Part shown: positions 4,083-34,948 of the stretch, piece by piece
How the letters are laid out: the number at the start of each line of letters is the position of its first letter
Numbering within the stretch: position 1 is the first letter of the stretch
From: a virus
IMG/VR virus record: IMGVR_UViG_3300005613_003622
Coordinates: 1 to 42,020 of that record
DNA: 42,020 bases
Reading direction: 5' to 3' (one strand)
The notes under the pieces: model-generated
Databases searched by the model: none
The model's input: the letters and a program-made list of their open reading frames with translations, nothing else
What the model was told of the DNA's origin: nothing
Program-made: the position numbers and the translations under genes

Positions 4083-4647
4083 TCTTCAATTTCCTTTTAA
4101 AATCATTTATAGTATAAATTGATATAGGTTGGTAAGCTTTTTCAATTAATTTTTCTTTACTACCATCTAAAGGATCAATTAATGAAATAATTTCTATAAC
4201 ATTTGTTTTTTGTTTAATTAACGAATCAATACCTTTTAGAACTAAATCTCCATTTAATACAGCATTTAAAATTATTACATTATCTTTTTTTCTTAAGTTC
4301 CCATATGTTCTCATTGTAATTTTTTTTGAATCTATAATAGAAGTAATTTTAGACATTAAAATAGGTTTTAAATTCCATTGTTTATAATAAGCAAAAGAAA
4401 CAAATGACATAATTGAAGCAAAAGATAAAACATCCATCCCTACTATACTATCTATTGATAATATTTCTGGAATTTGACCTTTTAATGTTTCTATTATTGT
4501 TTCTGATATAATATCATTAAATAATTTAATAGTATTTGTATCAATTATTGAATGTCTTATAATTAATTCTAGATAATTTTTAGAATCAAAAAAAATTTCA
4601 TTCTTTAATCTTAGTATATCTAATAATTGTTGTTTTTTATTATTCAT
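4075..4647 (-). CDS. phosphoribosyltransferase-fold protein (orotate PRTase-like), degenerate PRPP loop
   Basis: 190 residues. The layout resembles orotate phosphoribosyltransferase: IVGMDVLSFASIMSFVSFAY corresponds to the first substrate loop, and VIILNAVLNGDLVLKGIDSL followed by VIEIISLIDPLDGSKEKL corresponds to the PRPP-binding strand-loop-helix. In active enzymes that segment reads close to VLIVDDVxTTGGS with two acidic residues and TTG. Here the acidic pair is replaced by NA and the glycine-threonine loop is altered, so catalysis is doubtful. It may be a binding or regulatory relative. Ends with YTINDFKRKL, like the OPRTase tail. It overlaps its neighbours by a few bases. Confidence 0.5.
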   Translation of the reverse strand: MNNKKQQLLDILRLKNEIFFDSKNYLELIIRHSIIDTNTIKLFNDIISETIIETLKGQIPEILSIDSIVGMDVLSFASIMSFVSFAYYKQWNLKPILMSKITSIIDSKKITMRTYGNLRKKDNVIILNAVLNGDLVLKGIDSLIKQKTNVIEIISLIDPLDGSKEKLIEKAYQPISIYTINDFKRKLKNE

Positions 4648-5003
4648 AATTTTTCCATATTTTGTATTAATTCTTCAACTATTGTTTCATGCATGTCATT
4701 TGCAATATTATCAGAATTATCTGAGAATTCTGAAATTGACCAAGGTGATTTAAAAGATATTTCTTTAGTAACATCTGCATCCATATAGTTACTGTCTAAT
4801 TTAGCTTGAAAAGCTCTCGTTTCATAATACATTTGATAACCTATTGTCTCGAATTCCCCTTCCTTATTACGATGTTCCATTAATCCTACAGTAGATACTA
4901 CTATTTTATCCTTTCCGTTTTCTATTAATGTATTTCGTCTAAACCTACATCTATTAGAATAAACATAATGTCCTCCCCATCCTCTTTCCGTTCGTTTAAC
5001 CAT
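4644..5003 (-). CDS. hypothetical phage protein
   Basis: 119 residues, not recognised. It starts MVKRTERGWGGHYVYSNRCR, with repeated aromatic and arginine residues, and a middle that looks like beta strands (IVVSTVGLM, IGYQMYYETRAFQAKLD), then an acidic C-terminal helix. Soluble, no signal or membrane segment. It overlaps both neighbours by 4-8 nt, so it is part of one translationally coupled chain. Confidence 0.55.
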   Translation of the reverse strand: MVKRTERGWGGHYVYSNRCRFRRNTLIENGKDKIVVSTVGLMEHRNKEGEFETIGYQMYYETRAFQAKLDSNYMDADVTKEISFKSPWSISEFSDNSDNIANDMHETIVEELIQNMEKL

Positions 5004-5229
5004 TGTTCTTCTTTCTCATCTTTTCTTTATTTTTTATTTTAGATTGTATATAATTTGGTTTATGCTTGATTAACCATTCTAAGAGATCTGCTATAGAAAT
5101 AAATGTCCAATTGTAACCTGCTTCATTATATGCTTTTGCCCAAAGAGTCCCATCCTTATCCTCTTCTATCTCTACAGATGGATCTATGCCTTTTATACCA
5201 CAATTAATTGTTGTTTTATGTACAATCAT
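4996..5229 (-). CDS. hypothetical small protein
   Basis: 77 residues, not recognised. The N-terminal half is acidic (GIKGIDPSVEIEEDKDGTLW), the C-terminal end is strongly basic (KIKNKEKMRKKNNG). It is the first gene after the repeated spacer at 5241-5316, and an AAAGGTAAATAAAA ribosome site precedes ATG. Confidence 0.5.
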   Translation of the reverse strand: MIVHKTTINCGIKGIDPSVEIEEDKDGTLWAKAYNEAGYNWTFISIADLLEWLIKHKPNYIQSKIKNKEKMRKKNNG

Positions 5230-7378: not shown

Positions 7379-8716
7379 CTATTTCAATTCCTCTATATTA
7401 TTATACACTTTCCAAAATGCATCAATTATATATTGAATTTGCAAATCATCTAATGGTAAACTATGATACATATTAGTAAAAAGAGTATTTTTCCATAAAT
7501 TTTCAGTTACAGGACATATCCCTTTTCTATATATTCTTTTACTATCTTTCCATGGATAAAATGTTTGGCCATATAATAATGTATGATCAAACAATGGAAA
7601 TAAATACAATGGTTTAATATATCCACATCCTAACATAGGTTTATCGGGTCTTCCTTTTTCTCCTGGTAATTCTGCTGCAACAGCTTTTATGAATAAATCT
7701 CTATGAATTCTAGATTCTTCTTGAATATATCTCATTGTATGGACATAATAACTATGTGTATTATCAGGGGGAATAAAAGTTCCTAAAAGTAATGGAATAC
7801 GTTTTATCCCTTCCCATATTTTTTCAACATTAATTATTCTACGATATATAAAATCTTTTAATTTATCTAATTGATAATATAAAATAGCAGCTTGAATTTC
7901 AGTCATTCTCATGTTAAAACCTAACATATTATTATGAGGACTAAATCCAAAATCTAGATTATATCTATCACTTCCCATATCATTATTTACAGCTTCTGCA
8001 TGATTTCTAATCATCTGACATCTAAGAGCTAATACTTCATTATCTGTAACAATCATTCCACCTTCACCAGCAGTAAGATGTTTCCCTTGTGTAAAAGAAA
8101 AACAACCAATATCTCCTAAAGTACCTGTATATTTATCTTTATATTTTGATCCAATTGCTTGAGCAGCATCTTCAATAATATATAAACCATAATCATTAGC
8201 AATTTCTTTTATTTTATCATAATCAGCAGGTTGTCCAAATAAATCAACTACAATAATTGCTTTTGTTTTTTTTGTTATTTTTTCTTTTATACTATCAGGA
8301 TCTAAGCAATAAGTAACTGGATTAATATCTGCAAATATTGGAATAGCATTCCATAATAGAGGAGCTGTTGCTGAACAAGACATAGACCAAGGAGTTACTA
8401 TCACTTCATCTCCAGGAGCCAAACCTATAGCACCACATGCTATTTGTAATGCACTTGTACAACTATTAACTGAAATAGCTTTTTTAATATTAAAATACTT
8501 TTCCCATTTTCTTTCTAATTTTTGTACCCATTCTCCGCCATAAAATCCAGGTGATTCTTGACTCCAATTACCACGAAAACTGGAAAGATTAACCTCACCT
8601 AATGCTGCTTTTTCCATTAATTGTTTAACTACATCAATTTCTTGCCAATTTATACTTAATTGATGAGGGAATGGATTTGTTGTAACCATTTTCCCGCCAT
8701 TAATTGCTAATTTCAT
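7379..8716 (-). CDS. DegT/DnrJ/EryC1/StrS-family PLP-dependent sugar aminotransferase
   Basis: 445 residues. SCTSALQIACGAIGLAPGDE and VIVTPWSM form the PLP phosphate site; VDLFGQPADYDKI, IIEDAAQAIGSKYK and FSFTQGKHLTAGEGGM follow, with K212 as the Schiff-base lysine. The family transfers an amino group from glutamate or glutamine to a keto-sugar nucleotide, as PseC/LegC do after PseB/LegB. At 445 residues it is longer than PseC (about 380), with an N-terminal extension and an insert more like the AHBA/scyllo-inosose branch, so the exact substrate is open. A good AAAGGAAAG site precedes ATG, with a TATAAT about 50 nt upstream. Confidence 0.88.
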   Translation of the reverse strand: MKLAINGGKMVTTNPFPHQLSINWQEIDVVKQLMEKAALGEVNLSSFRGNWSQESPGFYGGEWVQKLERKWEKYFNIKKAISVNSCTSALQIACGAIGLAPGDEVIVTPWSMSCSATAPLLWNAIPIFADINPVTYCLDPDSIKEKITKKTKAIIVVDLFGQPADYDKIKEIANDYGLYIIEDAAQAIGSKYKDKYTGTLGDIGCFSFTQGKHLTAGEGGMIVTDNEVLALRCQMIRNHAEAVNNDMGSDRYNLDFGFSPHNNMLGFNMRMTEIQAAILYYQLDKLKDFIYRRIINVEKIWEGIKRIPLLLGTFIPPDNTHSYYVHTMRYIQEESRIHRDLFIKAVAAELPGEKGRPDKPMLGCGYIKPLYLFPLFDHTLLYGQTFYPWKDSKRIYRKGICPVTENLWKNTLFTNMYHSLPLDDLQIQYIIDAFWKVYNNIEELK

Positions 8717-9049: not shown

Positions 9050-10069
9050 TTAAATCCCTAATTTTTTAAATACTTCATGAACATTTATAGCATTTCTATC
9101 AGTACATAATAATTTACTTCCTTTATGAATAAAATCAAATGCATTCTTTGTTAATAATGATAAAGAAGATGTTAAGGATGTCTCTTCTGTATATATAGGT
9201 TCTGTAGACATTGAATCATAATTTCCATATGTTAATTCTGGTCTTGCCAGATAAGACATATATCTTTTTCCATGATCTGTAAATACATGTTTAGATTTCT
9301 TAGCATATATAGTTAAATCAAATATATCATAATCTCTCCCATCTACCGGAACTAGAAATACATGAGGACATTGTTCATATGAAAGATAAGCAGCATAAGT
9401 AGGATCTTCTTTGGAAAAATCACAGAAAGAATTATTTTTATTTAATAATTGACCCCCCAAACATTTCCCAAATAAATAATTAAAAAGATCTATTCCATGA
9501 CTAGCATCTCTTTTAAACCCTCTAGTATAAGTTAAAACAGCATTATATATAGGATCTAAATCTCTATTGAATATTTTTCTTTGTAATTTTTGAATAGTAG
9601 GATCAAATCTCCTAGAATAATCAATCATAATAGGAACATTAATTGATTCAAAATTAATACTAATATTCAAAGCTTCTTCATAATTAGTTGTAAAAGGTTT
9701 CTCTACAATCATTAATTGAGGTTTATATGAATTATTTGTTTTTGTATTTAAAATACATTCATTTAATAATTTATAAATTTCCCATAAAACTTCCTCATGA
9801 TATTTAGTATTAACTGCTATAACTATTATTTCTGGAAAAAAATCTGTAATAGCAAATTTTAAATTTGTACAATAAAATCCATTCCATTTTATAGCAGCTT
9901 GTTTTGCTTTATTAATATTTTTGTCATAAAATATTAATTTATTTGTATTAGAATTGTTATAAAAAGCATGAGCTAAAGTTAAAATATTTTTTCCATTTGG
10001 TCTATCATATTTATCTTCCTTTAACCCACCTATACTTCCACATCCTATTATCAGAATATCATTTGACAT
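9050..10069 (-). CDS. Gfo/Idh/MocA-family NAD(P)-dependent oxidoreductase
   Basis: About 339 residues from the chosen start. The N-terminus DILIIGCGSIGG is the dinucleotide-binding turn; IIVIAVNTKYHEEVLWEIY and MIVEKPFTTNYEEALNI give the conserved EKP motif, and IDYSRRFDPT and GIDLFNYLFGKCLGGQ the substrate domain. Members oxidise or reduce sugars and sugar nucleotides. Start ATG 10067-10069 is preferred because AGGGGGAG lies 6 nt upstream; a longer reading from 10111 has no such site and would overlap the gene upstream. Placement between the aminotransferase and cytidylyltransferase suggests a sugar-nucleotide step; the exact substrate is unknown. Confidence 0.82.
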   Translation of the reverse strand: MSNDILIIGCGSIGGLKEDKYDRPNGKNILTLAHAFYNNSNTNKLIFYDKNINKAKQAAIKWNGFYCTNLKFAITDFFPEIIVIAVNTKYHEEVLWEIYKLLNECILNTKTNNSYKPQLMIVEKPFTTNYEEALNISINFESINVPIMIDYSRRFDPTIQKLQRKIFNRDLDPIYNAVLTYTRGFKRDASHGIDLFNYLFGKCLGGQLLNKNNSFCDFSKEDPTYAAYLSYEQCPHVFLVPVDGRDYDIFDLTIYAKKSKHVFTDHGKRYMSYLARPELTYGNYDSMSTEPIYTEETSLTSSLSLLTKNAFDFIHKGSKLLCTDRNAINVHEVFKKLGI

Positions 10070-10088
10070 CTTTATTCTCCCCCTTCTC

Positions 10089-10319
10089 TTATGTTGAATT
10101 ACATTCTCCACCCAAAGCCTCTACCAACATATCCACTATCTCTGGCAAATATCTTTCATCCCCCTTATTAGAAAATTCGATTAATTCAGCATCTATATCT
10201 AATTCATCAGGCTCTAAATGACCTTTCCAAACTCCTCCTTCTTGATGGTTATAATAACATATTGTAAAATTACCTGTTTTCATTAATTTAATTATTTCTT
10301 TTCTCTGTAAAGCATCCAT
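10089..10319 (-). CDS. hypothetical small acidic protein
   Basis: 76 residues, acidic, not recognised: FTICYYNHQEGGVWKGHLEP then an acidic run and a helix (YLPEIVDMLVEALGGE). Its ATG overlaps the preceding stop by one base (TAATG), so it is coupled to the gene upstream. Soluble, no membrane or signal segment. Confidence 0.5.
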   Translation of the reverse strand: MDALQRKEIIKLMKTGNFTICYYNHQEGGVWKGHLEPDELDIDAELIEFSNKGDERYLPEIVDMLVEALGGECNST

Positions 10320-11174: not shown

Positions 11175-11951
11175 TTATCCTTCTCCTGCTATTTTAGCTT
11201 TGATATTTGAATTAATTTTTTGTAAATTAGGATTTACTCTTATAAATTGAATAACATCTTTTATAGAAAAATTATTAAAGTTTTTAAATTCTTCAAAAAT
11301 AATTTGTAATAATTCATAATCCTCCTTAGTATCTAGTGTGATTCTCATTTCTGGATAATTAAATATTTTTGGAGCAGGATAATTACCTATTTTATAATCA
11401 TTTGGAAATTGCAAAATATTCCATCCTGTATGTTGTTTATGTTTTTCATTAGTTATTTTATGATAAACACTAGATAAAGCATCCAATGTATATACTTGTA
11501 TATCACATCCATCCGGCCATGTTCTTTTTACTATATTTGAATAATAATCTAAATTATTATCAACTAATTTTTCTATAAATAAATCTATGTAATAAGAATC
11601 AACTAAAGGACAATCTGCTGTAATATCTATAATGATATCTGGAAGATTTTTATCTATTTTTATTGTATATGCAGCATTTAATACTCTAAATATTACATCA
11701 TTCATACTTCCTTGAAAAATAAGAGCATAATCTTTCCATATTCGCTGTCTCCAATTCATAATAATATCTTTATTTTGTAGTGTCTTTGGAATAGCAATGA
11801 CTGTTTTATCTACATATTTTGAATTAGAAATTCTTTCAATTATCCATTGAAGTACAGGTTTTCCAGCTAAATCTAATAAAACTTTTCCAGGTAATCTAGT
11901 ACTTTCCATACGAGCTTGAACAATTACCAAAATACGTTTCTTTTTATACAT
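11175..11951 (-). CDS. SpsF/acylneuraminate-type cytidylyltransferase
   Basis: 258 residues. The N-terminus IVQARMESTRLPGKVLLDLA and GKPVLQWIIERI is the nucleotidyltransferase signature of the SpsF/CMP-sugar synthase group; DIIIDITADCPLVDSYYID carries the metal-binding acidic residues, and MRITLDTKEDYELLQIIFEE the C-terminal block. The family activates sugars, including nonulosonates, with CTP. With the NeuB-type synthase it would complete a route to an activated nine-carbon sugar. AAGGAAAT precedes ATG. It is the first gene after the inverted repeat at 11971-12140. Confidence 0.85.
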   Translation of the reverse strand: MYKKKRILVIVQARMESTRLPGKVLLDLAGKPVLQWIIERISNSKYVDKTVIAIPKTLQNKDIIMNWRQRIWKDYALIFQGSMNDVIFRVLNAAYTIKIDKNLPDIIIDITADCPLVDSYYIDLFIEKLVDNNLDYYSNIVKRTWPDGCDIQVYTLDALSSVYHKITNEKHKQHTGWNILQFPNDYKIGNYPAPKIFNYPEMRITLDTKEDYELLQIIFEEFKNFNNFSIKDVIQFIRVNPNLQKINSNIKAKIAGEG

Positions 11952-16841: not shown

Positions 16842-17657
16842 TTATTTTCCTAATCTTTGCTTCACCACATCTAATTCAAAATCATAACAATGCAAACTTT
16901 TACAAGAAAATGATACTGGTCCAGGTTTTACATTTGGTAATTGATCTGCTATATATTCATTTAATAAGATGAATCCTCCCATATTAACTGGAAATCCACT
17001 ATACAAATCCCAACTTCTATATATTACATTAGTAATTAAATAATGATTTACTACTCTAAAATCTAATAATCTTAAACAAGGGGTAGTTCCTCTTTTTGTT
17101 TCATCTGTTTGTAATTGTATTACAATACCTTTTTCTCTAAAACATTTAGGACATATAGCCCTTCTATATATTCTAGAATATTCACCACATTCAGGACATT
17201 TCATATATTTTGTATCATAAGCAAGACAAGAATCTGAATCACCCACCATTATAGCACAATGTTCATTTCCATATCCATTAGTTTTGAAATGATTAATAAT
17301 CCATTCTAATTGATTAGTTGGACATATATCATTTTTTCCAACTATCCAACTAGCATATTTATAATGTTCATTTTTACTTAATATATTATTCATTAGATAA
17401 TCCGAAAAATAAAAATCTATATCTTCGTCAGTAGTAGGTCTTGGTAAACTAGATCCTTCTGGCATTAAAGGTGCTAAGGGTCGAGTATGTGGTTGGGAAA
17501 TGAATCCAGAAACAAAATCAAAAGCTACTCTATCATGTCCCATAAAACTACCTGACGAAATTTTATATTTTCTTCCATTTTTATATAGTTGATATAAAAG
17601 TTGATACCAAGTATCATCAAGAGTTGTAGTATGTATAAATACTGGTTTAAACTTCAT
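16842..17657 (-). CDS. thymidylate synthase-family protein with inserted zinc ribbon
   Basis: 271 residues. The C-terminal part matches ThyA-fold enzymes: TTPCLRLLDFRVVNHYLITN, VIYRSWDLYSGFPVNMGGFI, LLNEYIADQL and a final helix. C194 aligns with the catalytic cysteine, but the usual following histidine is leucine and the Q of QFR is D. A four-cysteine zinc ribbon (CPEC at 154-157, CPKC at 169-172) is inserted just before the catalytic strand, which is unusual. Family members methylate or hydroxymethylate dUMP or dCMP with folate. It could make normal dTMP or a modified pyrimidine; the altered residues leave this open. Confidence 0.75.
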   Translation of the reverse strand: MKFKPVFIHTTTLDDTWYQLLYQLYKNGRKYKISSGSFMGHDRVAFDFVSGFISQPHTRPLAPLMPEGSSLPRPTTDEDIDFYFSDYLMNNILSKNEHYKYASWIVGKNDICPTNQLEWIINHFKTNGYGNEHCAIMVGDSDSCLAYDTKYMKCPECGEYSRIYRRAICPKCFREKGIVIQLQTDETKRGTTPCLRLLDFRVVNHYLITNVIYRSWDLYSGFPVNMGGFILLNEYIADQLPNVKPGPVSFSCKSLHCYDFELDVVKQRLGK

Positions 17658-18148: not shown

Positions 18149-18226
18149 TTTTTAAAAAAATTATTTAATTAACTGCCTTATATTATCTTATAGGTTAAAA
18201 AGAAAATTTTACAACGGTTTTATTTT
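18149..18226 (-). repeat. 76-bp direct repeat, copy 2 (gene end plus leader)
   Basis: Same sequence and orientation as 5241-5316, differing at a handful of bases and small A/T-run indels. It covers the last codons (KIKPL, stop) of the GT9 gene and the spacer up to the 43-residue peptide gene. Shared core on the minus strand: AACC(G/T)ATAAGATAATATAAGGCA. Confidence 0.75.
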
Positions 18227-19438
18227 ACATTCTTCCAAAATATTATTTACTAATTTGTTTATATTAATTTTATCATAACATATAGGATATCCTCTAATAG
18301 CATGTTTACAAGATGAATAACTATGAGACATACATGGAGCACAATCACAAGGAGCATCTATCCAATTACATTTATCATATGTTTCTAATCTTATTTTTCC
18401 TGGAAACGGTCCATATATTCCATAGGTTGGTTTACCTATAGCACTTGCAATATGAATTAGTCCTGTATCTATTGAAACTACTAATTTAGAGAGAAATATC
18501 ATTGCCATAGCATCTCCCATATCTTTTGAATATGGTGAAAAATTATAAACTAAATCCGGTCTATTACATTTTTTAATTAAAGCATCTATCGTAAATGATT
18601 CTTTAGGTTGATCTACAAATACTACTGATATCCCTTTATTAACTAAACCATTCAATAAATTCAACCAAAATTCAGGACGAGGGGTTCTATGAATAGTACT
18701 GGCTCTTAATTGTAAAATAAGAAATGGAACATTTAAATTCCAACCATGTAAAATTTTTTTACATTTTTCAACTCTATTCATATCTATTTTTTGTAATGGT
18801 TTTAATTCTTTATTCGGAATATCTAAATTTACCCATTTAGCTAATATTTTATAAACATTGATTTTTTCTGATTCTACACATTTATTAATAATTCCATCAA
18901 AATGTAAATGATAATCTGAAGACATAAATGGGATATCAGATACAGGAGAAGAATATAATTCATCTATAAAATCCCAATGCTTTGTAAATATACTATGTCT
19001 AGCAGGGTAAACTAATGCAATAATAGATTTAGGATATTTCTTTTTTATATATCTTAAAACAGGTTGTACAAAAAAAAGATCTCCTATTCCTCCTCCATAT
19101 ACCCAACATAATATTTTTTTATTATTTAAATTTTCTCCTTTCCAAAATTTAAAATATTTTATGAATCTATTAGTAGGTTTAAATAATTTAGCATGATAAC
19201 CATCGATAAAAAGTAAGAGATCTAAAAGATATCTTTTTCCTTTTTTTATCTTTAATGTATATCCATCAGTAAATCTAATAGTATTAGTCATTCTAGATTC
19301 TGCTATAACCATTTCTGGTGGTTTAGATCTAAATTCTTTCAAAGTATTAGTATGAGTATTTCTTATTTTCTTAATATCTTCTAATTTATAACCTAATTTT
19401 GAAATTATATTATCTGATAATACTTTTGGATTTTTCAT
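18209..19438 (-). CDS. glycosyltransferase family 9 (ADP-heptose:LPS heptosyltransferase-like)
   Basis: About 409 residues. ILCWVYGGGIGDLFFVQPVL is the family N-terminal glycine motif; LILQLRAS, GISVVFVDQPKE, VVSIDTGLIHIASAIGKPTY and GIYGPFPGKIRL give the nucleotide-sugar domain (DTG..H.A...GKP). The tail has clustered cysteines (PCDCAPC), as in some anaerobe members. GT9 enzymes add heptose or related sugars to lipopolysaccharide core. In a phage it might alter the host surface or decorate virions, perhaps with the nonulosonate genes. The ATG at 19436-19438 is preferred to a TTG four codons earlier. Confidence 0.82.
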   Translation of the reverse strand: MKNPKVLSDNIISKLGYKLEDIKKIRNTHTNTLKEFRSKPPEMVIAESRMTNTIRFTDGYTLKIKKGKRYLLDLLLFIDGYHAKLFKPTNRFIKYFKFWKGENLNNKKILCWVYGGGIGDLFFVQPVLRYIKKKYPKSIIALVYPARHSIFTKHWDFIDELYSSPVSDIPFMSSDYHLHFDGIINKCVESEKINVYKILAKWVNLDIPNKELKPLQKIDMNRVEKCKKILHGWNLNVPFLILQLRASTIHRTPRPEFWLNLLNGLVNKGISVVFVDQPKESFTIDALIKKCNRPDLVYNFSPYSKDMGDAMAMIFLSKLVVSIDTGLIHIASAIGKPTYGIYGPFPGKIRLETYDKCNWIDAPCDCAPCMSHSYSSCKHAIRGYPICYDKININKLVNNILEECKIKPL

Positions 19439-19450
19439 TTTTTTTACCAA

Positions 19451-23156: not shown

Positions 23157-23169
23157 ATATTTCCTTAAA

Positions 23170-23242
23170 AAGGCTGAGTAGGATTTGAACCTACAACTTC
23201 TGGAGTCAAATTCCAGTGTTCTACCAATTGAACTATCAGCCT
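23170..23242 (-). tRNA. tRNA-Gln (anticodon UUG)
   Basis: Clean cloverleaf: acceptor AGGCTGA/TCAGCCT, D arm GTTC-AATTGGTA-GAAC, anticodon stem CTGGA/TCCAG around loop ATTTGAC with anticodon TTG, T arm GTAGG-TTCAAAT-CCTAC. CCA is not encoded. It lies between the uvsX and ssDNA-binding protein genes, in the same direction. It may raise supply for CAA codons, which the AT-rich genes favour. Confidence 0.95.
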
Positions 23243-23259
23243 CTAAATTTTAGTAGTTT

Positions 23260-25855: not shown

Positions 25856-28462
25856 TTATCCTTTATATTCTTTCATTTCATACCAATTTCCATTTATCTC
25901 TGATATTTCAATATCTACATTTAAAGGAATATTTATCCATTTCCATTTTTTTCTTATATCTTCACACATAGTTTTCTTTATAATAGGAACAATATATTCT
26001 AATTCATTCGGATCAACATCCATATTCATAGCATCATGAATCTGCCCTATAATTTTACTTTTCCATTTTTCTTTTTTTGCTCTTTTATTCACTTGAATAA
26101 GTGACCATAATAGACAATGAAAAGCAGTTCCCTGAATTTTGTAATTTAAAACTTCATTTTTTTTCATTAATCCAGAACATCTAAATCCTGTAAGAAAATC
26201 AAAATATCCTTTTTCTTGATAATCATTCCATACTTTTTCCTTCCATTTTCCATAAATTTTAAATTTATTATGCCAAAAATCATATTGACATGTTCTTAAA
26301 TAATTTTCGTAGCTATGAAAAGATTTTATTCCATTTTTTTTAAGATGATCTATAAGTAATATATTATCTTTTGTTTTTTTTTGTAATATAATATTCCATA
26401 ATGCTGGGGCACAATCTTTATAATAAGATCCGTAAAATTGAGCAAATACCCATTTATTTTTTGCCTCATATCTTATTTCTTTAGTAATTTGATTTGGTTT
26501 TAATTTAAATAATAGACACGCTTGATCTCTATGCATATCTGTAGTAGAATCATTTAAATATTTAACCATTACAGGATCCTTATGATAACAAGTACTGATA
26601 TGAACTTCTAATCCTGAATAATCTACTTCTAGTAATAAATTACCTTTTCTAGGGATTAACCCTTTTCTTACTATTTTTTGAGCTTCCATATTTCTCTTGG
26701 GAATGTTTTGGAAATTTGGATTTGAGCTACTAGATCTGAAAGTACGAACAGTATTAAGTAAAAATCCTGGATGTATAAAACTATTAGCTGAATTTTTTAA
26801 AAATCCTTTTAAATATGTATTTCTTATTCTATACAATTTTCTATATTGTAAAATGGTATTAGTAAATGGTATATTTATTTGTGATAATGCATTTGCATTT
26901 ACTGATCCGATAGATTCTTCTTCAGCTTCTTCTACATCAAATATCTGATTTTTTTTTATTTTCAAATATCTGTATAATAAATCTTGCATATGAAGATTAG
27001 ATCTCGGATTAAATTTTTTTCGATTATTTTCTTTCCATATATTTTTTATTTCATTATAATTATATATCCTTTTTTCTAATTTTGTTAATCTTTTTTGTAA
27101 ATTATTACTTTGTAATTCATAATATTTTTTATCTATTAGTATACCATCATTCTCTATTTTGCTAAATTCTAATGCACCATTATGTAATAATTTATAACCT
27201 TTATATAAAGAAGTTTTAACAATATATTTTTGTTTTAACCATAATTTATATGTATATTTAGAATCGATACCACAATATAATAAAACTTTATTAAATATAA
27301 ATGAATTATTTTTTATTTCTTCTAATTTATTTTTTCCAAATATACCATCATTTGATTTTAAATATGGAGAAACTTCATTTTCATAACCAAATATACCAAA
27401 TTCTTTATAAATTTGAAATTTTAATCCAGTAATTCCAGGTCTATTATCTATACAATGAGCAGCTAGCATAGTATCCCAATACCATCCACAAATATCACAA
27501 TTAAAAATTGCTCTAGTCCAACTATCTTCATATTTAAAATTATGGGCTATTTTTTTAATATTAGAATTTGTTAGTATAGATTTTAACAAACGCATAAGTA
27601 TTATATTATCTTCAAAAATAGGAAATACTATTGTTTTTACATCCGATTCATTATTTTTACAATAAGCAATAGACATACAAATAATTTTATGTTTATTTAC
27701 GAATGGTATTAAACCAGTAGTTTCATAATCAAAAGCTATAGGAGAATATTTCATTTCTGATATTTCTTTTAAATGAAAAATAACTTCTTTTGGATCTGTA
27801 ATTAAAAGTATATTATCTTTTTCATTATCTATCATAAAAGGTTCATTCCAATTAATAGCTTTTTCTAAATGATTTGAAAATAAATTTGATAATACTTTTT
27901 TTAATGCTGGATTATTTTCATTTCTTTGAATATAAGATGGATGATATGTAGGAAATACCCAACATCCTATCTCTTGATCCGGTATCCTAAATCCTACCCA
28001 TTTTCCCATACTATTTATAGTCATTCTATCTCCTATTAAAGAAGATAAAGCTGTTAATCCTAATGTAATAATTTTTTTAGGCTTATATTTAATTATATTT
28101 TTGAAAATATGGGATGAACAATATTTAATTTCTGTATTTGTTGGTTTTCTATTATGAGGTGGTCTACAAATCACACTATTATCTTTCCAACAATCCCCAT
28201 CTAAATCTATATTTAATTTTTCTAAAGTATTTCTAAGTAATTGACCTGCTTTTCCAATTAATTGAATTCCTCTTTTATCCTCACTTTCTCCAGGAGCTTC
28301 TGCTATAAACATAATTTTTTTCTTACCTTCACCTGAACATGACATTTTTGGAGATATACATTTTTTATATAGTCCACATTTTATACAATTATTACCATCC
28401 CCAATAGATTTTAATTGATTTTTATTCATTTGTTTCGGCCAAAAATATTTATTATTTTTCAT
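25856..28462 (-). CDS. uracil-DNA glycosylase / family A DNA polymerase fusion
   Basis: 868 residues. Residues 1-210 are a family 4/5-type uracil-DNA glycosylase: CIKCGLYKKC, IMFIAEAPGESEDKRGIQLI plus GKAGQLL (54-76), CRPPHNRKPTNTE, LGLTALSSLIG and a TYHPS motif. Then a 3'-5' exonuclease domain (AFDYETTGLIPF; IAHNFKYEDSW; YCGIDSKYTYKLW). The polymerase domain has motif A LLEVDYSGLEVHISTC, motif B in KNKWVFAQFYGSYY, IQGTAFHCLLWSLI and motif C IGQIHDAMN. This is the replicative polymerase. A UDG-Pol A fusion is known from SPO1-like phages. ATGA overlap couples it to the radical SAM gene upstream. Confidence 0.93.
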   Translation of the reverse strand: MKNNKYFWPKQMNKNQLKSIGDGNNCIKCGLYKKCISPKMSCSGEGKKKIMFIAEAPGESEDKRGIQLIGKAGQLLRNTLEKLNIDLDGDCWKDNSVICRPPHNRKPTNTEIKYCSSHIFKNIIKYKPKKIITLGLTALSSLIGDRMTINSMGKWVGFRIPDQEIGCWVFPTYHPSYIQRNENNPALKKVLSNLFSNHLEKAINWNEPFMIDNEKDNILLITDPKEVIFHLKEISEMKYSPIAFDYETTGLIPFVNKHKIICMSIAYCKNNESDVKTIVFPIFEDNIILMRLLKSILTNSNIKKIAHNFKYEDSWTRAIFNCDICGWYWDTMLAAHCIDNRPGITGLKFQIYKEFGIFGYENEVSPYLKSNDGIFGKNKLEEIKNNSFIFNKVLLYCGIDSKYTYKLWLKQKYIVKTSLYKGYKLLHNGALEFSKIENDGILIDKKYYELQSNNLQKRLTKLEKRIYNYNEIKNIWKENNRKKFNPRSNLHMQDLLYRYLKIKKNQIFDVEEAEEESIGSVNANALSQINIPFTNTILQYRKLYRIRNTYLKGFLKNSANSFIHPGFLLNTVRTFRSSSSNPNFQNIPKRNMEAQKIVRKGLIPRKGNLLLEVDYSGLEVHISTCYHKDPVMVKYLNDSTTDMHRDQACLLFKLKPNQITKEIRYEAKNKWVFAQFYGSYYKDCAPALWNIILQKKTKDNILLIDHLKKNGIKSFHSYENYLRTCQYDFWHNKFKIYGKWKEKVWNDYQEKGYFDFLTGFRCSGLMKKNEVLNYKIQGTAFHCLLWSLIQVNKRAKKEKWKSKIIGQIHDAMNMDVDPNELEYIVPIIKKTMCEDIRKKWKWINIPLNVDIEISEINGNWYEMKEYKG

Positions 28463-29490
28463 ATATAGTTTCTAATTCCGATATTCTTATTATTATAAAA
28501 TAATGATTCATTTTTTGCATTTTTATGTTCATATTTTTTATATTTTTTTAAATGGATTTTTAATTTTAAAAAAGCATCTTCTTTAGAAGAATTTAATTTT
28601 ATTTTTGAAAGAAGTCCTTGTCTAAATCCCCCAAAAAAATTACATTTATAACAAGGACGCATAATTCTATTTTTGTTTAATAGAAAATATCTAGCTATAT
28701 TAAATATCTCACTATTCCATATATCTTTTAAACTACCATCTTCAGGAAATTTACCAATAATAAATTCATGTCTCCAATCTACACAACATATTGGAATTGT
28801 TCCATCATGATGAAAAACTAATTCTCTAAATGGTCTTACACATTTTTTAATTAAAGAACTTCTTAATGGTAAGATTCCATATTTTAATAAATTCTTTTCA
28901 TTACTATTTCCTGCATGATTTTCAATAGTTCTTTGTATTTTTTTAGCTAACATATTAGATAAATCATCTGTATCTAATATTATTTTTATTTTATTTCCAT
29001 TTTTATTATAAGAATATGGATGATAATTACAATTTTTATCATAATAATAAAAATATTTAGCTGATTTATTATTTTTACAAAGTTTTAGTAATTCTTTTCG
29101 TTTAGTATAAGTATCTACTACCAAAATATTTAAACCATACTTAAACATTTCATCTAAAATAGATGGATATTTTAATAAATGTAATCCATTTGTAGCTAAT
29201 TGTATTTGAGCTCTTGGAATATTTTTTCTTAATAATTTTATAATAGTTAATAATTTTGGATGTAAAGTAGGTTCCCCATGCATAGCTAATTCTATTCTAC
29301 CTTTGTTTATCCAATTATTAAATTCTATAGATAATTTTTCTATTAATATTGGATCAATAAATTTTATATTTCTATCTTTTTTATTTTTCCAAATGCTATT
29401 TATCCCACAAAAATCACACATCCTATTACAACCTTCTACTAATTCTAATTGTAATGCATGAGGATTTTTAATTTTATTTATAATATTCAT
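28459..29490 (-). CDS. radical SAM/SPASM-type enzyme
   Basis: 343 residues. CNRMCDFCG (C21, C25, C28) is the SAM-binding [4Fe-4S] motif; GRIELAMHGEPTLHPKLLTI and IQLATNGLHLLKY are typical barrel segments. C-terminal CVRPFRELVFHHDGTIPICC and CYKCNFFGGF give the auxiliary cluster region of SPASM/twitch enzymes. Substrate unknown. It sits in a row with a glycosyltransferase and a second radical SAM gene, beside the polymerase, so a nucleic-acid modifying role is a reasonable inference. AAAGGAT precedes ATG. Confidence 0.85.
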   Translation of the reverse strand: MNIINKIKNPHALQLELVEGCNRMCDFCGINSIWKNKKDRNIKFIDPILIEKLSIEFNNWINKGRIELAMHGEPTLHPKLLTIIKLLRKNIPRAQIQLATNGLHLLKYPSILDEMFKYGLNILVVDTYTKRKELLKLCKNNKSAKYFYYYDKNCNYHPYSYNKNGNKIKIILDTDDLSNMLAKKIQRTIENHAGNSNEKNLLKYGILPLRSSLIKKCVRPFRELVFHHDGTIPICCVDWRHEFIIGKFPEDGSLKDIWNSEIFNIARYFLLNKNRIMRPCYKCNFFGGFRQGLLSKIKLNSSKEDAFLKLKIHLKKYKKYEHKNAKNESLFYNNKNIGIRNYI

Positions 29491-29501
29491 TAATAATTAA
29501 T

Positions 29502-30320
29502 TTATCCTTTCTTTAGAAAATCTAATATATTTCCTTTTTTTTCACTATAAGCTTTTTTCCATGATATATTAACATCTATTCTTTGATTATTATTTATCCC
29601 ATTCCATATAGATTTACTATTTTTTATTTTTATTTTTACAAAATTAGGATGTAATTTTTTTAATTCATAAGCAGCATTTGATTGAATTTCTTTTGTTCTA
29701 TATATAGAACATCCCCCTTTAGCACCACTAGCACCTTGTCCCCATGCATATTTATATGTAACTCTATTATTATAACCTAATTCTAATAAAGATAAAGTAA
29801 CATCAAAATCTTCCATCACCTGTAATCTATCAAATCTAATTTTTGATTTTAAAAATTTTTCTACATTATAAGCATAAGCATTATTCATTCTAGTTGTTTC
29901 AGCAAAATCATTTTTTTCACAAAAGTTATGTTGTCTTGCACTTATACCAACATGAATAAAATCTTTTTTTAACCAGTTATGTAATAATAAAAACATATCA
30001 TTAATTTCATTTTCATTACATTTAATTAATTTTTTATTTTTTCTTATATTAAAATTCATATCATCATCTAAAAATAATGAATATTTACTATAAGAATTTT
30101 CCATTATCCATTGACGTATTTTTGATATACCTTTTAATGGGGAAATCATAACTCTATCTTTTCCATATAATTTAATATGAGAATCAGCTTCTTCCTTACC
30201 TACAACTAATTTTGTATATGGTATTATATTTTTTGGTATATTTTTTAATGTTTTTTGTTTTATTAATCTTCCTCTAGTAGGAATATATATCCATAATTTA
30301 TTTTTCATATTATTTTTCAT
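29502..30320 (-). CDS. TET-associated-type (TAGT-like) GT-A glycosyltransferase
   Basis: 272 residues. IYIPTRGR (11-18) starts the nucleotide-sugar fold; ISKIRQWIMENS and YSLFLDDDMNF (DDD at 85-87) give the metal site, followed by AYAYNVEKF, VMEDFDVTLSLLELGYN and an end like other phage members (WGQGASGAKGGCSIYRTKEI). This pattern matches the glycosyltransferases that computational work links to modified bases in phage DNA. No TET/JBP hydroxylase is in the window. The target could be DNA base, protein or glycan; the setting next to the polymerase favours DNA. Confidence 0.65.
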   Translation of the reverse strand: MKNNMKNKLWIYIPTRGRLIKQKTLKNIPKNIIPYTKLVVGKEEADSHIKLYGKDRVMISPLKGISKIRQWIMENSYSKYSLFLDDDMNFNIRKNKKLIKCNENEINDMFLLLHNWLKKDFIHVGISARQHNFCEKNDFAETTRMNNAYAYNVEKFLKSKIRFDRLQVMEDFDVTLSLLELGYNNRVTYKYAWGQGASGAKGGCSIYRTKEIQSNAAYELKKLHPNFVKIKIKNSKSIWNGINNNQRIDVNISWKKAYSEKKGNILDFLKKG

Positions 30321-30445
30321 ATTATCTTTTTATAAATTTACTAATACCCATATTTTTTCTTAAGGATTGTTTTAAATGATATATATATATATAAGACACC
30401 CTCCTATATTATGTCATAATAGACTTAATAATAGTATTTTCATAA

Positions 30446-30961
30446 TTACTTTTTCCATCCTAATAAAGCCACATGTCTATTTATTTTCATTTTATTATTT
30501 ATTTTTTCTAAAATTAATCCTGAATGCTTACATGTTCTATAAACTTGAACTCCACTAGCATGTGGCATTAATGTAAATATATTTGTTCTTAATAATAACA
30601 TAGCTTTTTCTACACGTTTCTTTAATTGTTTTCTAGATGTGCCTTGCCAATATAGACAATTTCTTAATTGCCGTTCTGTCCAATCTGGATGTTTAATTTT
30701 CATTTTATTTACATGTTTTTCTAAATCAAATTCCGAATGCACAATATACATATTTTTTTCTATATCAAATATATCAGTTATATAAGGAGCTGCTGGAGGA
30801 CACTTATCACGAATTCCATACATAGGGCATCCCTTTTGATGTCCCGGATATTTAAGATTACACCAATATAATACTTTCTTAGAATAGAAAAGTTTCTTTA
30901 CTTTAATTATCCAATTTGGTATTATATTTAATTTTTTTTTAGGCCAATAAAAATTATTCAT
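30446..30961 (-). CDS. cysteine-rich DUF2284-like metal-binding protein
   Basis: About 171 residues from ATG 30959-30961 (overlaps the radical SAM stop as ATGA; GAAGGAA upstream), longer reading from 30991 less likely. Cysteines in CNLKYPGHQKGCPMYGIRDK and CPPAAPY resemble the CPxY...CPP cores of DUF2284-like putative metal-binding proteins; later YWQGTSRKQLKKRVEKAMLL and YRTCKHSGL. It is coupled to the SplB-like radical SAM gene, so the two probably act together. Function unknown. Confidence 0.55.
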   Translation of the reverse strand: MNNFYWPKKKLNIIPNWIIKVKKLFYSKKVLYWCNLKYPGHQKGCPMYGIRDKCPPAAPYITDIFDIEKNMYIVHSEFDLEKHVNKMKIKHPDWTERQLRNCLYWQGTSRKQLKKRVEKAMLLLRTNIFTLMPHASGVQVYRTCKHSGLILEKINNKMKINRHVALLGWKK

Positions 30962-32403
30962 CGTGTTAAATCTATTCCTTCTTCTGCCCATTCTTTTTCA
31001 TAGTCATGAGGATTATATCTATAAACTAGATTCTTATTTTCATCTATTCCTATTGGAATTAATTTGTTATGAAGATAATTTCTAGGATTACTAAAACTCC
31101 TTAAATTATTCCAATGCTTTTCTAAAAATGTTCTATGTGTCATATTATTTCTATCAGATGAATTTAGACCAATTACACCAACATGGTCATTTGTTAAGGT
31201 CTTACTATCTAAAAACTTTGTTTTTTCTTTTGGATAAATATCATCTATTGTAAATTCTGTCTTAATTCCAGTAGTATGATATATTCTTCGAGCTTCTTTA
31301 ATAGCATAGGTTAATTGAGCTTTACTCCAATTTTCTAATAATTTATTATCAGGAAAATTATCTGGCATTCCACAACAACTTCCACTCATATTTAATTCTT
31401 TAAAGTCAGGATCACTACAACTAAATACTAAATTATTTTTTAAACAAAACTTATACATCTTTTTAATATATCGTTCCTTTACTAATCTATTTAAACGTCG
31501 ATATCCACCTCTTTCTCTAGGACTCAAAATACTGAAATATTTTTTTAAATCAGAAACACCAATCATACTAGCTAACCATTCATATCTTTTTGTCATACTT
31601 GTATTACATCTCGCATCCATGGCAAAAAATTCTGTACTAATTGCCCTTACTCCGGCAGCTAATGCATCATCTAATAATTTATCTAAAGAAAGATCAGTTA
31701 TACCTATAATAAAAGGACGTAATCTTAATATAGTCCAATATCCTAGATCACTCAACATTTTCAATATATTTAATCTCTTTGTAGGTGATTGCACTCCAAC
31801 TTCTACATACTTAGCTAAATCATCATCTCTAGTAATAATACTAACTTGAAAAGCAAAATTCTTTTGATTTTTATATTTTTCAAATAAATCTCTATATTCT
31901 TTTTTTAAGATTGCATCACCTTTAAAACTAAACAATGTAGGATAATTCATAGCACCTAATTCTTGAATTAGTGGATATCCTACCATATTAGTTTTTTCAA
32001 AATTGCAAAATGGATCAGCTAATCCTCCCCAATGTAATAGAAATTTCTTTTTATAAAATTGTTCATAAAGAACTTTTCCCTTTTCACCTTTTACTTCACC
32101 TTTCATATTTTTAATCATATTTTCAATATTAACAGCTCTCAGACTTAAATTAGTAATGGCAGGATTGTTAACTTTAAACACATAAGCAAAACAATACATA
32201 CATCCAAGACTACAAAAGTTATAATGATCAAAAGTTAGTGGCATAGAACAATCTGGAAATTCAGAACTAATACGAGGACTTCCATAACCACCTTTTGTTA
32301 ATTTAGTACCTTTGTTTTTACGTACCCAAATCAAACCCTCGTCTATCAATTCTTTAGGAATATTTTTCCCCATTAATTGACAACTTTTTATTTTTTTTGT
32401 CAT
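30958..32403 (-). CDS. radical SAM enzyme, SplB-like
   Basis: 481 residues. FDHYNFCSLGCMYCFAYVF has C64, C68, C71 (CxxxCxxC). LLHWGGLADPFCNFEKTN, LFSFKGDAIL, FQVSIITRDDDLAKYVEVGV and SPTKRLNILKMLSDLGY follow the spore-photoproduct-lyase-like barrel pattern. A later C-rich stretch (SGSCCGMPDN) may hold a second cluster. SPL repairs a thymine dimer; this sequence is longer and divergent, so a base-modifying or other reaction is equally possible. It overlaps the upstream gene by 50 nt, and TGGAGAT supports this start. Confidence 0.8.
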   Translation of the reverse strand: MTKKIKSCQLMGKNIPKELIDEGLIWVRKNKGTKLTKGGYGSPRISSEFPDCSMPLTFDHYNFCSLGCMYCFAYVFKVNNPAITNLSLRAVNIENMIKNMKGEVKGEKGKVLYEQFYKKKFLLHWGGLADPFCNFEKTNMVGYPLIQELGAMNYPTLFSFKGDAILKKEYRDLFEKYKNQKNFAFQVSIITRDDDLAKYVEVGVQSPTKRLNILKMLSDLGYWTILRLRPFIIGITDLSLDKLLDDALAAGVRAISTEFFAMDARCNTSMTKRYEWLASMIGVSDLKKYFSILSPRERGGYRRLNRLVKERYIKKMYKFCLKNNLVFSCSDPDFKELNMSGSCCGMPDNFPDNKLLENWSKAQLTYAIKEARRIYHTTGIKTEFTIDDIYPKEKTKFLDSKTLTNDHVGVIGLNSSDRNNMTHRTFLEKHWNNLRSFSNPRNYLHNKLIPIGIDENKNLVYRYNPHDYEKEWAEEGIDLTR

Positions 32404-32719
32404 AAATTAAATCTCCATTTTCTAACATTCTTAAAAAACTTATAAGCAAACTAATATCTACTATATTATTTCCGCAATAAGTAGCTATCTTAAAATATTT
32501 ATTCATAAGATCAAATAATTTCTTATTAGGAAATATTAAACTTATTTTTAATATATCTATAGATGATATAGTTGGAAGTGGTCCAATATAATCTGTACAT
32601 CTTTCAGGTATTAATAGTTTAGTTTCTAATTCTCTTATTTCTTCTTTAGTCTTATCTTTTATTCTTTTATTAAATTCTTTTATTTTATTTTTTGTTTTAA
32701 CAAAATTTTTTATATCCAT
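32354..32719 (-). CDS. hypothetical helical protein
   Basis: 121 residues, basic and helical at the start (VKTKNKIKEFNKRIKDKTKE), with a more hydrophobic middle (TISSIDILKISLIFPNKKLF). Not recognised. AAGGAGATAATTT gives a strong start; it is followed by the radical SAM gene with a 50-nt overlap and preceded by the sliding clamp. Confidence 0.5.
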   Translation of the reverse strand: MDIKNFVKTKNKIKEFNKRIKDKTKEEIRELETKLLIPERCTDYIGPLPTISSIDILKISLIFPNKKLFDLMNKYFKIATYCGNNIVDISLLISFLRMLENGDLIYDKKNKKLSINGEKYS

Positions 32720-32730
32720 AAATTATCTCC

Positions 32731-33465
32731 TTATATTGATGATATAGGAGATAATGCCCATAAATAATTATTATCATCTATAACAGAATCTATTAATACA
32801 GGTGAATTTTCTTTTATATGAATATTAGAATCGGCTGTATTATGTAAGGCTGATATTATAGTTAAAAAATAAGTTCCATTTACATCAATAGAAATATCTT
32901 CAGATTCCACTTTTCCTAACGATATATTAAATTGATGTATTTCATTTTCATGACTTTGTAAAAATAATTTACCTTTTATGACTTTAAAAGTTACAACTTT
33001 ACTTTTAAACATCTGTAAAAAATATAAAATATCAGTTTTAATTTTTTCAGTTATTTTAATCTGAAATGATACATTTTCTAATAATTGAGAAACAACATCA
33101 TCATCAGAAACTGCTGTTACTAAATCTTCAGGTTTTATTGTTAATAACTTTACTTTTCCTTTACCCTTTATATTAAGTATTAACCATTTTTCATCTTTAC
33201 TAATTTCATATTTGATATCTTTACTATCATTAATATTAGATAGAATTCTATGTAATATTGATAATTCTCTTAAACCAATCTGTAATTCAAATTTTTCATC
33301 ATCTGTAATAATAGTATTATTACTAACAAAGAGACAATTTAATGTATCAATAGATTGAATAATACCTTTTTTTTCTTTAATTTCTAATACACATTCATTA
33401 ATTATCCCATTCAAATGTACTGATTCTATTAGATTTTTAAAATTTATTGAATTTAAATTAAACAT
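32731..33465 (-). CDS. DNA sliding clamp (PCNA/gp45-like)
   Basis: About 244 residues from ATG 33463-33465, with AAAGGAG 6 nt upstream. Two similar beta-rich halves are visible; the end (DVNGTYFLTIISALHNTADS, SPVLIDSVIDDNNYLWALSP) fits a clamp: a YLxxI-type strand followed by a PVLI...YxxxP tail. Context is strong: helicase upstream, loader and polymerase in the same module. Sequence similarity to any one family is low, so gp45-type versus beta-type cannot be settled. Confidence 0.65.
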   Translation of the reverse strand: MFNLNSINFKNLIESVHLNGIINECVLEIKEKKGIIQSIDTLNCLFVSNNTIITDDEKFELQIGLRELSILHRILSNINDSKDIKYEISKDEKWLILNIKGKGKVKLLTIKPEDLVTAVSDDDVVSQLLENVSFQIKITEKIKTDILYFLQMFKSKVVTFKVIKGKLFLQSHENEIHQFNISLGKVESEDISIDVNGTYFLTIISALHNTADSNIHIKENSPVLIDSVIDDNNYLWALSPISSI

Positions 33466-34948
33466 TCTTTTCTCCTTTGTTAACATTATATCCTGCAAAA
33501 TAACTATCTAAATAAGGTTTACTGATATCCAATGATTGTAATACTATTATTTCTCGTTTTATATTACTTTTACCTTCCCTTCTTTTTAGAATATTAATGT
33601 TCATTATACCTTTTTCTTCTTCATCAGGTGTCTGATTCAGAGCTATAGCATGAGTTAGATGATTCATTTTTCTTCCATCTTCTGATGGATCGCTTTTCTT
33701 AATTTTTCTTTCAAGTGTTTCTTTATGACTATGACTGCCAGTAACTACAACACAATGCCTTTCCTGAGCTATACCTCTATGATATTCCCATGTAGCATTT
33801 ATTTGATGTCTATATTCACTAATCCCTCTAACTGGTGCCATAAAATCAGCATAATCTGTTATAATGATATCTGGAATATAATGTTCATAATATTCCAAAT
33901 TATCTAAATAATTTTTTATATCTAAAATACTTTTAGATTTTGCTGGAAAACAAATTAATTTAAAAGCACCTGTTCGGATTAATTTTTTAATAGATTTTGT
34001 TTTTTTAGCAGCCATTCTCCAAGAAGCTATTTTCTTTTTAACACTTTTATGTTTTATTGTTATTTCATATTTAGAATCAGTAATATTTTTGCATAATTTA
34101 CATGCTTTAAATCTGCCTTCTGGACTTCTTTTATCACAAAGACTTTTTTTATTATATATACAATCAAAATACGGAATTATAATATTATCTATACTTTTAC
34201 TACTAGATTTACCTAATATCATTCTATGAATTCTGGTTATAATCTGGTTTTGCGGCATTTCCATACTCACAAATAAAACTTTCAATCCGGACAATAAACC
34301 ACGTATACCAATTTCTAATAACCACCATGATTTTCCTCGTCCCATTGGTCCGATAACACCTATAAAATCTCCTCTTGAAAATCCTCCAATAGCTTTTCCT
34401 AAATCTCCTGGTAATTGAAATAAAATATTTTCTTCATTTTCAAATGCTTCTATAATAGCAGATCTATCATTTATAACATCAATTCCTACAGATTGTGGTC
34501 TTTCTGGACGTCTAAACTTTGCAATCAATGATTCAGCTTGTTCTATATTTCCTAAATTAGCTTCTGTTTTTATATCTTGACTGATTATTTCTAATGATCT
34601 CTTTCTTAAATAGAATTCTGCCTGATCTAAAGCATAATCTGAATTAAATTTTTCATCTATATCTGGCAAATCATTTAGAAATTTAGATATTAATTCTATT
34701 TTAGTACTATCCAAATCTTGTCTAGATTTAGTTTCAAAAATTTCTTGTATTAATTTTTTGGGAGCATTTTCATATATTTTATAGTATTCCAAACACCATG
34801 AAGCTATAATTTTAATATAAACAGATACAAGTAAATCAATTCTTAATATAACAGAAATACCTTTTAAAAATTTAGTATTATTTATCATTCCTATTGCTAT
34901 ATTTTTTTCAGCTTGATTATCAATAGGTGTTCTTTTCCATCTACTCAC
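33458..34948 (-). CDS. dnaB: replicative DNA helicase, DnaB-like
   Basis: About 495 residues from GTG 34946-34948 (GGAGGAG upstream; an ATG seven codons earlier would swallow that site). The N-terminal helical domain (to about 145) resembles DnaB-N. GDFIGVIGPMGRGKSWWLLE holds Walker A (200-207), LKVLFVSMEMPQNQIITRIH motif 1a, DIIITDYADFMAP Walker B, and CVVVTGSHSHKET the H3/switch part. A cysteine cluster (CDKRSPEGRFKACKLC) is inserted between 1a and B, probably a small zinc site. It overlaps the clamp gene by 8 nt. Confidence 0.85.
   Translation of the reverse strand: MSRWKRTPIDNQAEKNIAIGMINNTKFLKGISVILRIDLLVSVYIKIIASWCLEYYKIYENAPKKLIQEIFETKSRQDLDSTKIELISKFLNDLPDIDEKFNSDYALDQAEFYLRKRSLEIISQDIKTEANLGNIEQAESLIAKFRRPERPQSVGIDVINDRSAIIEAFENEENILFQLPGDLGKAIGGFSRGDFIGVIGPMGRGKSWWLLEIGIRGLLSGLKVLFVSMEMPQNQIITRIHRMILGKSSSKSIDNIIIPYFDCIYNKKSLCDKRSPEGRFKACKLCKNITDSKYEITIKHKSVKKKIASWRMAAKKTKSIKKLIRTGAFKLICFPAKSKSILDIKNYLDNLEYYEHYIPDIIITDYADFMAPVRGISEYRHQINATWEYHRGIAQERHCVVVTGSHSHKETLERKIKKSDPSEDGRKMNHLTHAIALNQTPDEEEKGIMNINILKRREGKSNIKREIIVLQSLDISKPYLDSYFAGYNVNKGEKNV

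Follow-up and report, generated by a model that had tools for sequence, protein, structure and literature searches.

A spore photoproduct lyase-fold radical SAM enzyme in a putative oxygen-independent DNA hypermodification cassette of phages

Known modification systems and the locus in the window

A hydroxymethyl pyrimidine is the established or presumed handle for TAGT glycosyltransferases, 5-hydroxymethyldeoxyuridine (5-hmdU) DNA kinases and amino acid:DNA transferases (ADDT). In systems that combine a hydroxymethylase with a TAGT (T4-like phages, LuckyBarnes, MW202897) an enzyme of the thymidylate synthase (TS) family plausibly makes this handle at the nucleotide level; other phages combine a TAGT with TET/JBP enzymes, which need O2. 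In M6-type pathways (Pseudomonas phage M6, which makes 5-NedU, and Salmonella phage ViI) ADDT attaches amino acids to activated 5-hmdU. M6 encodes a TS-family hydroxymethylase (gp58), and a gene for an SplB-family radical S-adenosylmethionine (SAM) enzyme lies next to its 5-hmdU DNA kinase gene, with ADDT nearby. Here we describe a locus in the viral IMG/VR record IMGVR_UViG_3300005613_003622 (the window; 42,020 nt, 24.5% G+C, probably a fragment), which encodes an SplB-like radical SAM enzyme, a DUF2284-like protein, a TAGT and a SPASM radical SAM enzyme. A sequence-only reading had regarded these as four tightly coupled neighbouring genes next to the polymerase, and this arrangement was confirmed: all four open reading frames are present on the minus strand, preceded by genes for a DnaB-like helicase and a sliding clamp and followed by a gene for a fusion of a uracil-DNA glycosylase (UDG) domain with PolA. 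The SplB-like and DUF2284 genes overlap by 34 bp, gaps of 125 bp and 11 bp separate DUF2284 from TAGT and TAGT from SPASM, and the SPASM gene overlaps the polymerase gene by 4 bp.

The glycosyltransferase of the window belongs to PF20691 (57.7 bits, cut-off 27.5), the same family as in the TET/JBP systems, as do all 24 TAGTs that were aligned. In its DDD motif (positions 85-87) D86 and D87 are invariant and D85 nearly so, D171 is also invariant, and the GT-A DxD motif is present. It is also related to the glycosyltransferases of the hydroxymethylase systems: of the two annotated TAGTs nearest to it, that of MW202897 lies beside a pyrimidine hydroxymethylase gene and that of LuckyBarnes beside a TS-family gene, and both likewise adjoin DNA replication genes. 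Unlike in these systems, the constant partner here is a radical SAM enzyme. None of 40 records with an SplB-like gene matched TET/JBP (PF12851), a search to which no control genome responded either, and the TS family (PF00303) was absent from 38 of the 40, while the same search matched four of four control phages. The window also differs from M6 in having no match to ADDT (PF18724) and no kinase in the block, but TAGT and SPASM genes instead.

TAGT and kinase genes alternate beside the SplB-like gene

Related loci were gathered through the SplB-like gene, a few also through DUF2284, and never through the TAGT or the kinase. Single-protein searches for near-identical sequences gave little, namely a single relative, L001, in which the gene order is clamp, small protein, SplB-like enzyme, a zinc-ribbon-like protein replacing DUF2284, TAGT, SPASM enzyme and PolA. 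Searches with two-sequence alignments opened the families and yielded 38 viral loci and 30 loci in bacterial genome assemblies for the SplB-like enzyme, and 16 viral loci for DUF2284. Without the window duplicate and outliers from the phage database, 71 viral and prophage SplB loci were retained, which were dereplicated at 90% identity to 53 clusters. The SplB-like family consists of two clades. In the close clade (53–58% identity to the window) the gene lies between the small conserved protein and PolA wherever both flanks are present, with varying cargo; members of the distant clade (about 31% identity) carry it beside ParB-like and terminase genes, often in apparent prophages.

We scored a TAGT or a P-loop kinase as partner if it was encoded within 9 kb of the SplB-like gene. 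A TAGT was present at 30 of the 71 loci and a kinase at 32, no locus had both, and nine had neither. At cluster level (22 TAGT, 23 kinase, 6 neither, 2 mixed) the mutual exclusion was significant (Fisher p=2e-7), and in the two mixed clusters near-identical SplB-like proteins are accompanied by a TAGT in one record and by a kinase in the other. Six of the nine loci with neither partner end close to the SplB-like gene. By eye, L031 encodes a GT-B-like protein similar to an additional glycosyltransferase-like protein found in L004; L096 has one protein that is glycosyltransferase-like and one that is PIG-L-like (no Pfam match), and L097 a C5-cytosine methyltransferase next to SplB.

The TAGT/kinase state changed at least 14 times on the SplB tree. 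L017 and L039 share DNA up to positions 4369/9486 and again from 5148/9957, and the gap is filled by a TAGT gene (4375-5172) or a kinase gene (9496-10002). Since the shared DNA flanks the exchanged gene on both sides, one gene replaced the other; a comparable exchange separates L029 from L082. Such swaps beside a nearly unchanged SplB-like gene indicate that the SplB-like enzyme stays while the decorating enzyme is exchanged. The alternation is old and repeated, and both enzyme types should accept the product of the SplB-like enzyme.

The best matches of the L015 kinase among 50,697 phage records were M6-like phages (26% identity to the M6 kinase, E 6e-13). The M6 copy itself matches PF18748, the "5-hmdU DNA kinase" family, with 65 bits (8e-18), and the L015 kinase reaches 19.8 bits against a cut-off of 27. 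In an alignment of 25 kinases including M6, 4 matched PF18748 and 7 matched PF18751 (E<=0.01). As most of the island kinases fall below the PF18748 cut-off, we regard them as kinase-like and not as proven members. ADDT was found in 3 of the 40 SplB records, all of the kinase type (L013, L021, L022), and in none of the TAGT records searched.

The second radical SAM enzyme follows the TAGT. It exceeds the cut-offs of both Radical_SAM (PF04055, 45.9 bits, 9e-12) and SPASM (PF13186, 39 bits, 1e-9), and C217, C235, C236, C280 and C283 are invariant in eight relatives. It was present in 9 of 22 TAGT clusters and absent from all 23 kinase clusters (Fisher p=6e-4). Among solved structures its nearest relative is BtrN (4m7s, 2e-9), an aminocyclitol dehydrogenase, and by this kinship the phage enzyme likely acts on the sugar; unlike BtrN it is linked to a TAGT.

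Together with the absence of a TS-family hydroxymethylase from 38 of the 40 records, the presence of a TAGT or a kinase at 62 of 71 SplB loci supports the idea of the sequence-only reading that base modification takes place here; a start from radical chemistry is favoured by this context and stays a proposal. We consider it very probable that the block is a cassette for DNA base hypermodification.

The SplB-like enzyme as candidate source of the handle

An AlphaFold model of the SplB-like enzyme (pLDDT 88, pTM 0.90) has spore photoproduct lyase (SPL, e.g., 4FHC) as its best solved match (Foldseek 3e-7). Structural comparison by VIA gave a Z of 19.4 over 274 residues at 3.5 Å, ahead of SuiB (Z 16). 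The two enzymes also share the CX3CX2C motif, whose cysteines (C64, C68, C71) are invariant in an alignment of 29 sequences of the phage enzyme and its relatives. Sequence identity to SPL is only about 13%, and the SPL family model TIGR04070 did not match the window protein (NCBIfam, E<=0.1). The best NCBIfam match was NF033668 (PA0069 family), with 54.8 bits far below its cut-off of 360, and the Pfam Radical_SAM match (1.6e-6) fell just under the cut-off. In further contrast to SPL, the phage enzyme is linked to DNA-decorating enzymes and not to spore genes, and it has a phage-specific C-terminal region beyond the SPL match that contains the invariant pair C343-C344. C52 is invariant as well, which makes six such cysteines in all. 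A start at Met11 would fit the relatives better and shorten the overlap with the upstream gene. In L036 and L100 the SplB-like gene appears split into two open reading frames, be it by a frameshift, an assembly error or decay.

The H-donor cysteine of SPL is C141 in Bacillus subtilis and C74 in Clostridium acetobutylicum. We dropped the claim that the phage enzyme lacks this residue, because clostridial SPL has it elsewhere; C52 is placed 12 residues ahead of the motif, close to the position at which a clostridial SPL (L104) has an additional cysteine. A cysteine of SPL quenches the methyl radical on thymine, and once this cysteine has been removed, dithionite-derived SO2 traps the radical at the methyl group (PMC3742179, PMC5368176). 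A TpTOH peak is also listed in the legend of an SPL HPLC figure. Trapping of the methyl radical makes it conceivable that a relative of SPL, such as the SplB-like enzyme, might functionalise the methyl group.

Which other enzyme could supply the handle? The sequence-only reading had pointed to a divergent TS-family gene at 16842 and had otherwise seen no obvious pyrimidine hydroxymethylase. The gene is indeed there and matches PF00303 with 27.8 bits (cut-off 24.3). Aligned with four relatives from hydroxymethylase contexts, however, the window protein and that of L010, the only other record with a TS match, show the ordinary synthase motif RSWD..G.P.N and not a hydroxymethylase motif such as RSND..WGAYGAN of M6 gp58. 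By this motif the gene is unsupported as a hydroxymethylase. The SplB-like enzyme is, on these sequence comparisons, the constant candidate for making the handle, and we put its chances of being the handle maker at near even or a little better.

From the observed gene identities, fold, co-occurrence, alternation and gene swaps we infer the following pathway, including its substrate, the chemistry of hydroxylation and the sequence of steps. As the first and constant step, the SplB-like enzyme would abstract hydrogen from the 5-methyl group of a DNA pyrimidine, most likely thymine. The methyl radical would be oxidised, perhaps aided by an auxiliary Fe-S cluster on C52, C343 and C344, and then captured by water, giving 5-hydroxymethyluracil without O2. 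The TAGT would glycosylate the hydroxyl group, and the SPASM enzyme, which is linked to the TAGT and not to the kinase, would then alter the sugar. Sister phages would use a 5-hmdU-DNA-kinase-like enzyme instead of the TAGT, and DUF2284 may be an optional metal-binding helper. That an O2-independent hypermodification proceeds in this way, with a handle on thymine, glycosylation and tailoring of the sugar, appears to us just about probable. The broader proposal, that an SPL-fold radical SAM enzyme hydroxylates or opens the thymine methyl group in DNA without O2 and thereby provides anaerobe phages with a third route beside TET/JBP and TS-type hydroxymethylases, on which interchangeable TAGTs and kinases build, is more tentative and falls somewhat short of an even chance.

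Several points weigh against this pathway. Hydroxylation without O2 would be an uncommon reaction for a radical SAM enzyme. A TS-like gene is present in the window and in L010, no control responded in the TET/JBP search, many of the records are fragments, which makes the absences soft, and the kinases are mostly under the PF18748 cut-off. Moreover, M6 encodes a distant SplB-like homologue (gp53; hhalign E 1e-8, the measure used here since gp53 had entered the iterated profile and inflated its scores) together with a TS-family hydroxymethylase. The radical SAM enzymes of M6 and ViI are reportedly isomerases, with gp53 acting on the already attached amino acid, so the SplB-like family need not make 5-hydroxymethyluracil.

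This leads to the strongest alternative: a hypermodification island whose SplB-like enzyme comes in late, tailoring or isomerising the base once it is decorated, with a handle from an unrecognised enzyme elsewhere. M6, in which gp53 adjoins the kinase with ADDT and the hydroxymethylase nearby, and the three SplB records with ADDT are consistent with such a role. However, the scarcity of ADDT (3 of 40 records, no TAGT record) means that an isomerase would in most cases find no amino acid to work on, a single enzyme would need to tailor both sugars and phosphates, and a TS-family hydroxymethylase is missing from nearly all records. We regard a late role as unlikely, yet worth serious attention. 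It is less likely still that the handle is made on cytosine, with 5-methylcytosine from a host or phage C5-methyltransferase being oxidised by the SplB-like enzyme as phage TETs do. TAGT-type enzymes are named for 5-hydroxymethylcytosine (PHROG_842), and C5-cytosine methyltransferase genes occur in 4 of the 40 SplB records and, by eye, next to SplB in L097; their absence from most records argues against 5-methylcytosine, and the kinase-type loci speak for chemistry on uracil. Finally, a DNA-repair lyase beside a glycosyltransferase for host or virion surfaces, in a merely coincidental neighbourhood, would agree with the SPL fold and the sugar-biosynthesis genes of the window but is very improbable given partners at 62 of 71 loci that never occur together, a fixed position of SplB in the replication operon of one clade and by the terminase in the other, and an NCBIfam result that does not place the enzyme in the SPL family.

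A handle made by the SplB-like enzyme without O2 would be in agreement with the hosts. Those named for the distant clade include Bacteroides fragilis, Prevotella, Selenomonas ruminantium (strain S137 carries the kinase-type locus L078), Lachnospiraceae, Oscillospiraceae and other Clostridia; most of the named hosts are strict anaerobes and come from gut or rumen, although metagenomes of these habitats are also heavily sampled. Anaerobic hosts suit an O2-independent enzyme, and TET/JBP enzymes could not function in strict anaerobes because of their need for O2. Phages of gut and rumen should meet the same restriction and CRISPR pressure as others. If true, the radical SAM route would account for post-replicative DNA modification in phages of anaerobes, would extend radical SAM chemistry by a new reaction, and might offer a tool for placing chemical handles on DNA under anoxia. 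What makes the locus interesting is that it may replace TET/JBP and hydroxymethylases by an oxygen-free route; otherwise it is a variant of known hypermodification systems. Our literature search found no link of SplB/SPL-like enzymes to phage hypermodification, although an earlier mention is possible in Iyer et al. 2013 or in "Pathways of thymidine hypermodification" (presumably Lee et al. 2022).

Optional components and neighbouring genes

The DUF2284-like protein marginally matches PF10050 (1.4e-5, 25.3 bits, cut-off 25.0), and C44, H51, C55, C64, H101, W104 and a YWQ motif are invariant in ten relatives. With three invariant cysteines, the label "Cys-rich" given to it by the sequence-only reading was overstated. 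No solved structure matched its fold significantly (Foldseek E>2; VIA Z<=4.3, rmsd about 5 Å). The proposed pairing of SplB and DUF2284 as a unit did not survive the neighbourhood analysis: DUF2284 occurred in 5 of 53 SplB clusters, four of them of the kinase type, and DUF2284-like proteins of other phages (L003, L041-L051; up to 735 kb) had no visible modification genes nearby. Because it is optional and also lies beside terminases and other unrelated genes, DUF2284 was rejected as a constant partner.

Table 1. Features of the cassette and its surroundings in the window
Feature	Position	Strand	Length	Matches and remarks
SplB-like radical SAM enzyme	30958..32403	-	481 aa	NF033668 7.6e-15
DUF2284-like metal-binding protein	30446..30991	-	181 aa	PF10050; optional component
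TAGT-family GT-A glycosyltransferase	29502..30320	-	272 aa	PF20691 2.1e-15; PHROG_842 1.4e-46
SPASM/twitch radical SAM enzyme	28459..29490	-	343 aa	PF04055 + PF13186
Small conserved protein	32354..32719	-	121 aa	Directly upstream of SplB-like gene
Sliding clamp-like protein	32731..33498	-		PF02768 0.0066, weak; synteny kept
PolA with N-terminal UDG-superfamily domain	25856..28462	-		PF00476 5e-48, PF03167 4e-22
Divergent thymidylate synthase-like protein	16842..17657	-		PF00303; TIGR03283 1.7e-14

As listed in Table 1, a small protein is encoded upstream of the SplB-like gene; it has 18 matches in the close clade, in the same position, and is probably part of the replication module. The UDG-superfamily domain on PolA is of note in a phage that may modify uracil or thymine.

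Some islands contain further genes. Between the SplB-like gene and PolA, L013 (11383-15929) encodes an inositol-1-phosphate synthase, an FkbM-like methyltransferase (by eye), ADDT and a dual-specificity phosphatase fused to a P-loop kinase. A B12-binding radical SAM protein is encoded in L011 (11902-13512) and L012, in the same island as two TAGT and two SPASM genes. In L019 (6433-8048) genes for a HAD/APH-like kinase and a cytidylyltransferase lie next to the TAGT gene, which suggests a CDP-activated donor; L020 has similarly sized genes. The window carries a putative set for a CMP-nonulosonic acid (sialic/legionaminic-like), consisting of GNAT, NeuB (1e-42), DegT aminotransferase, Gfo/Idh and cytidylyltransferase, plus a GT9 glycosyltransferase (minus strand; 100-630, 1395-2213, 7379-8716, 9050-10111, 11175-11951, 18209-19450). 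This set could feed the TAGT or modify surfaces. NeuB-type sugar synthesis was rejected as a general part of the cassette, since among 28 SplB records NeuB was present only in the window. A tRNA-Gln gene (TTG anticodon) is located at positions 23169-23243 of the window.

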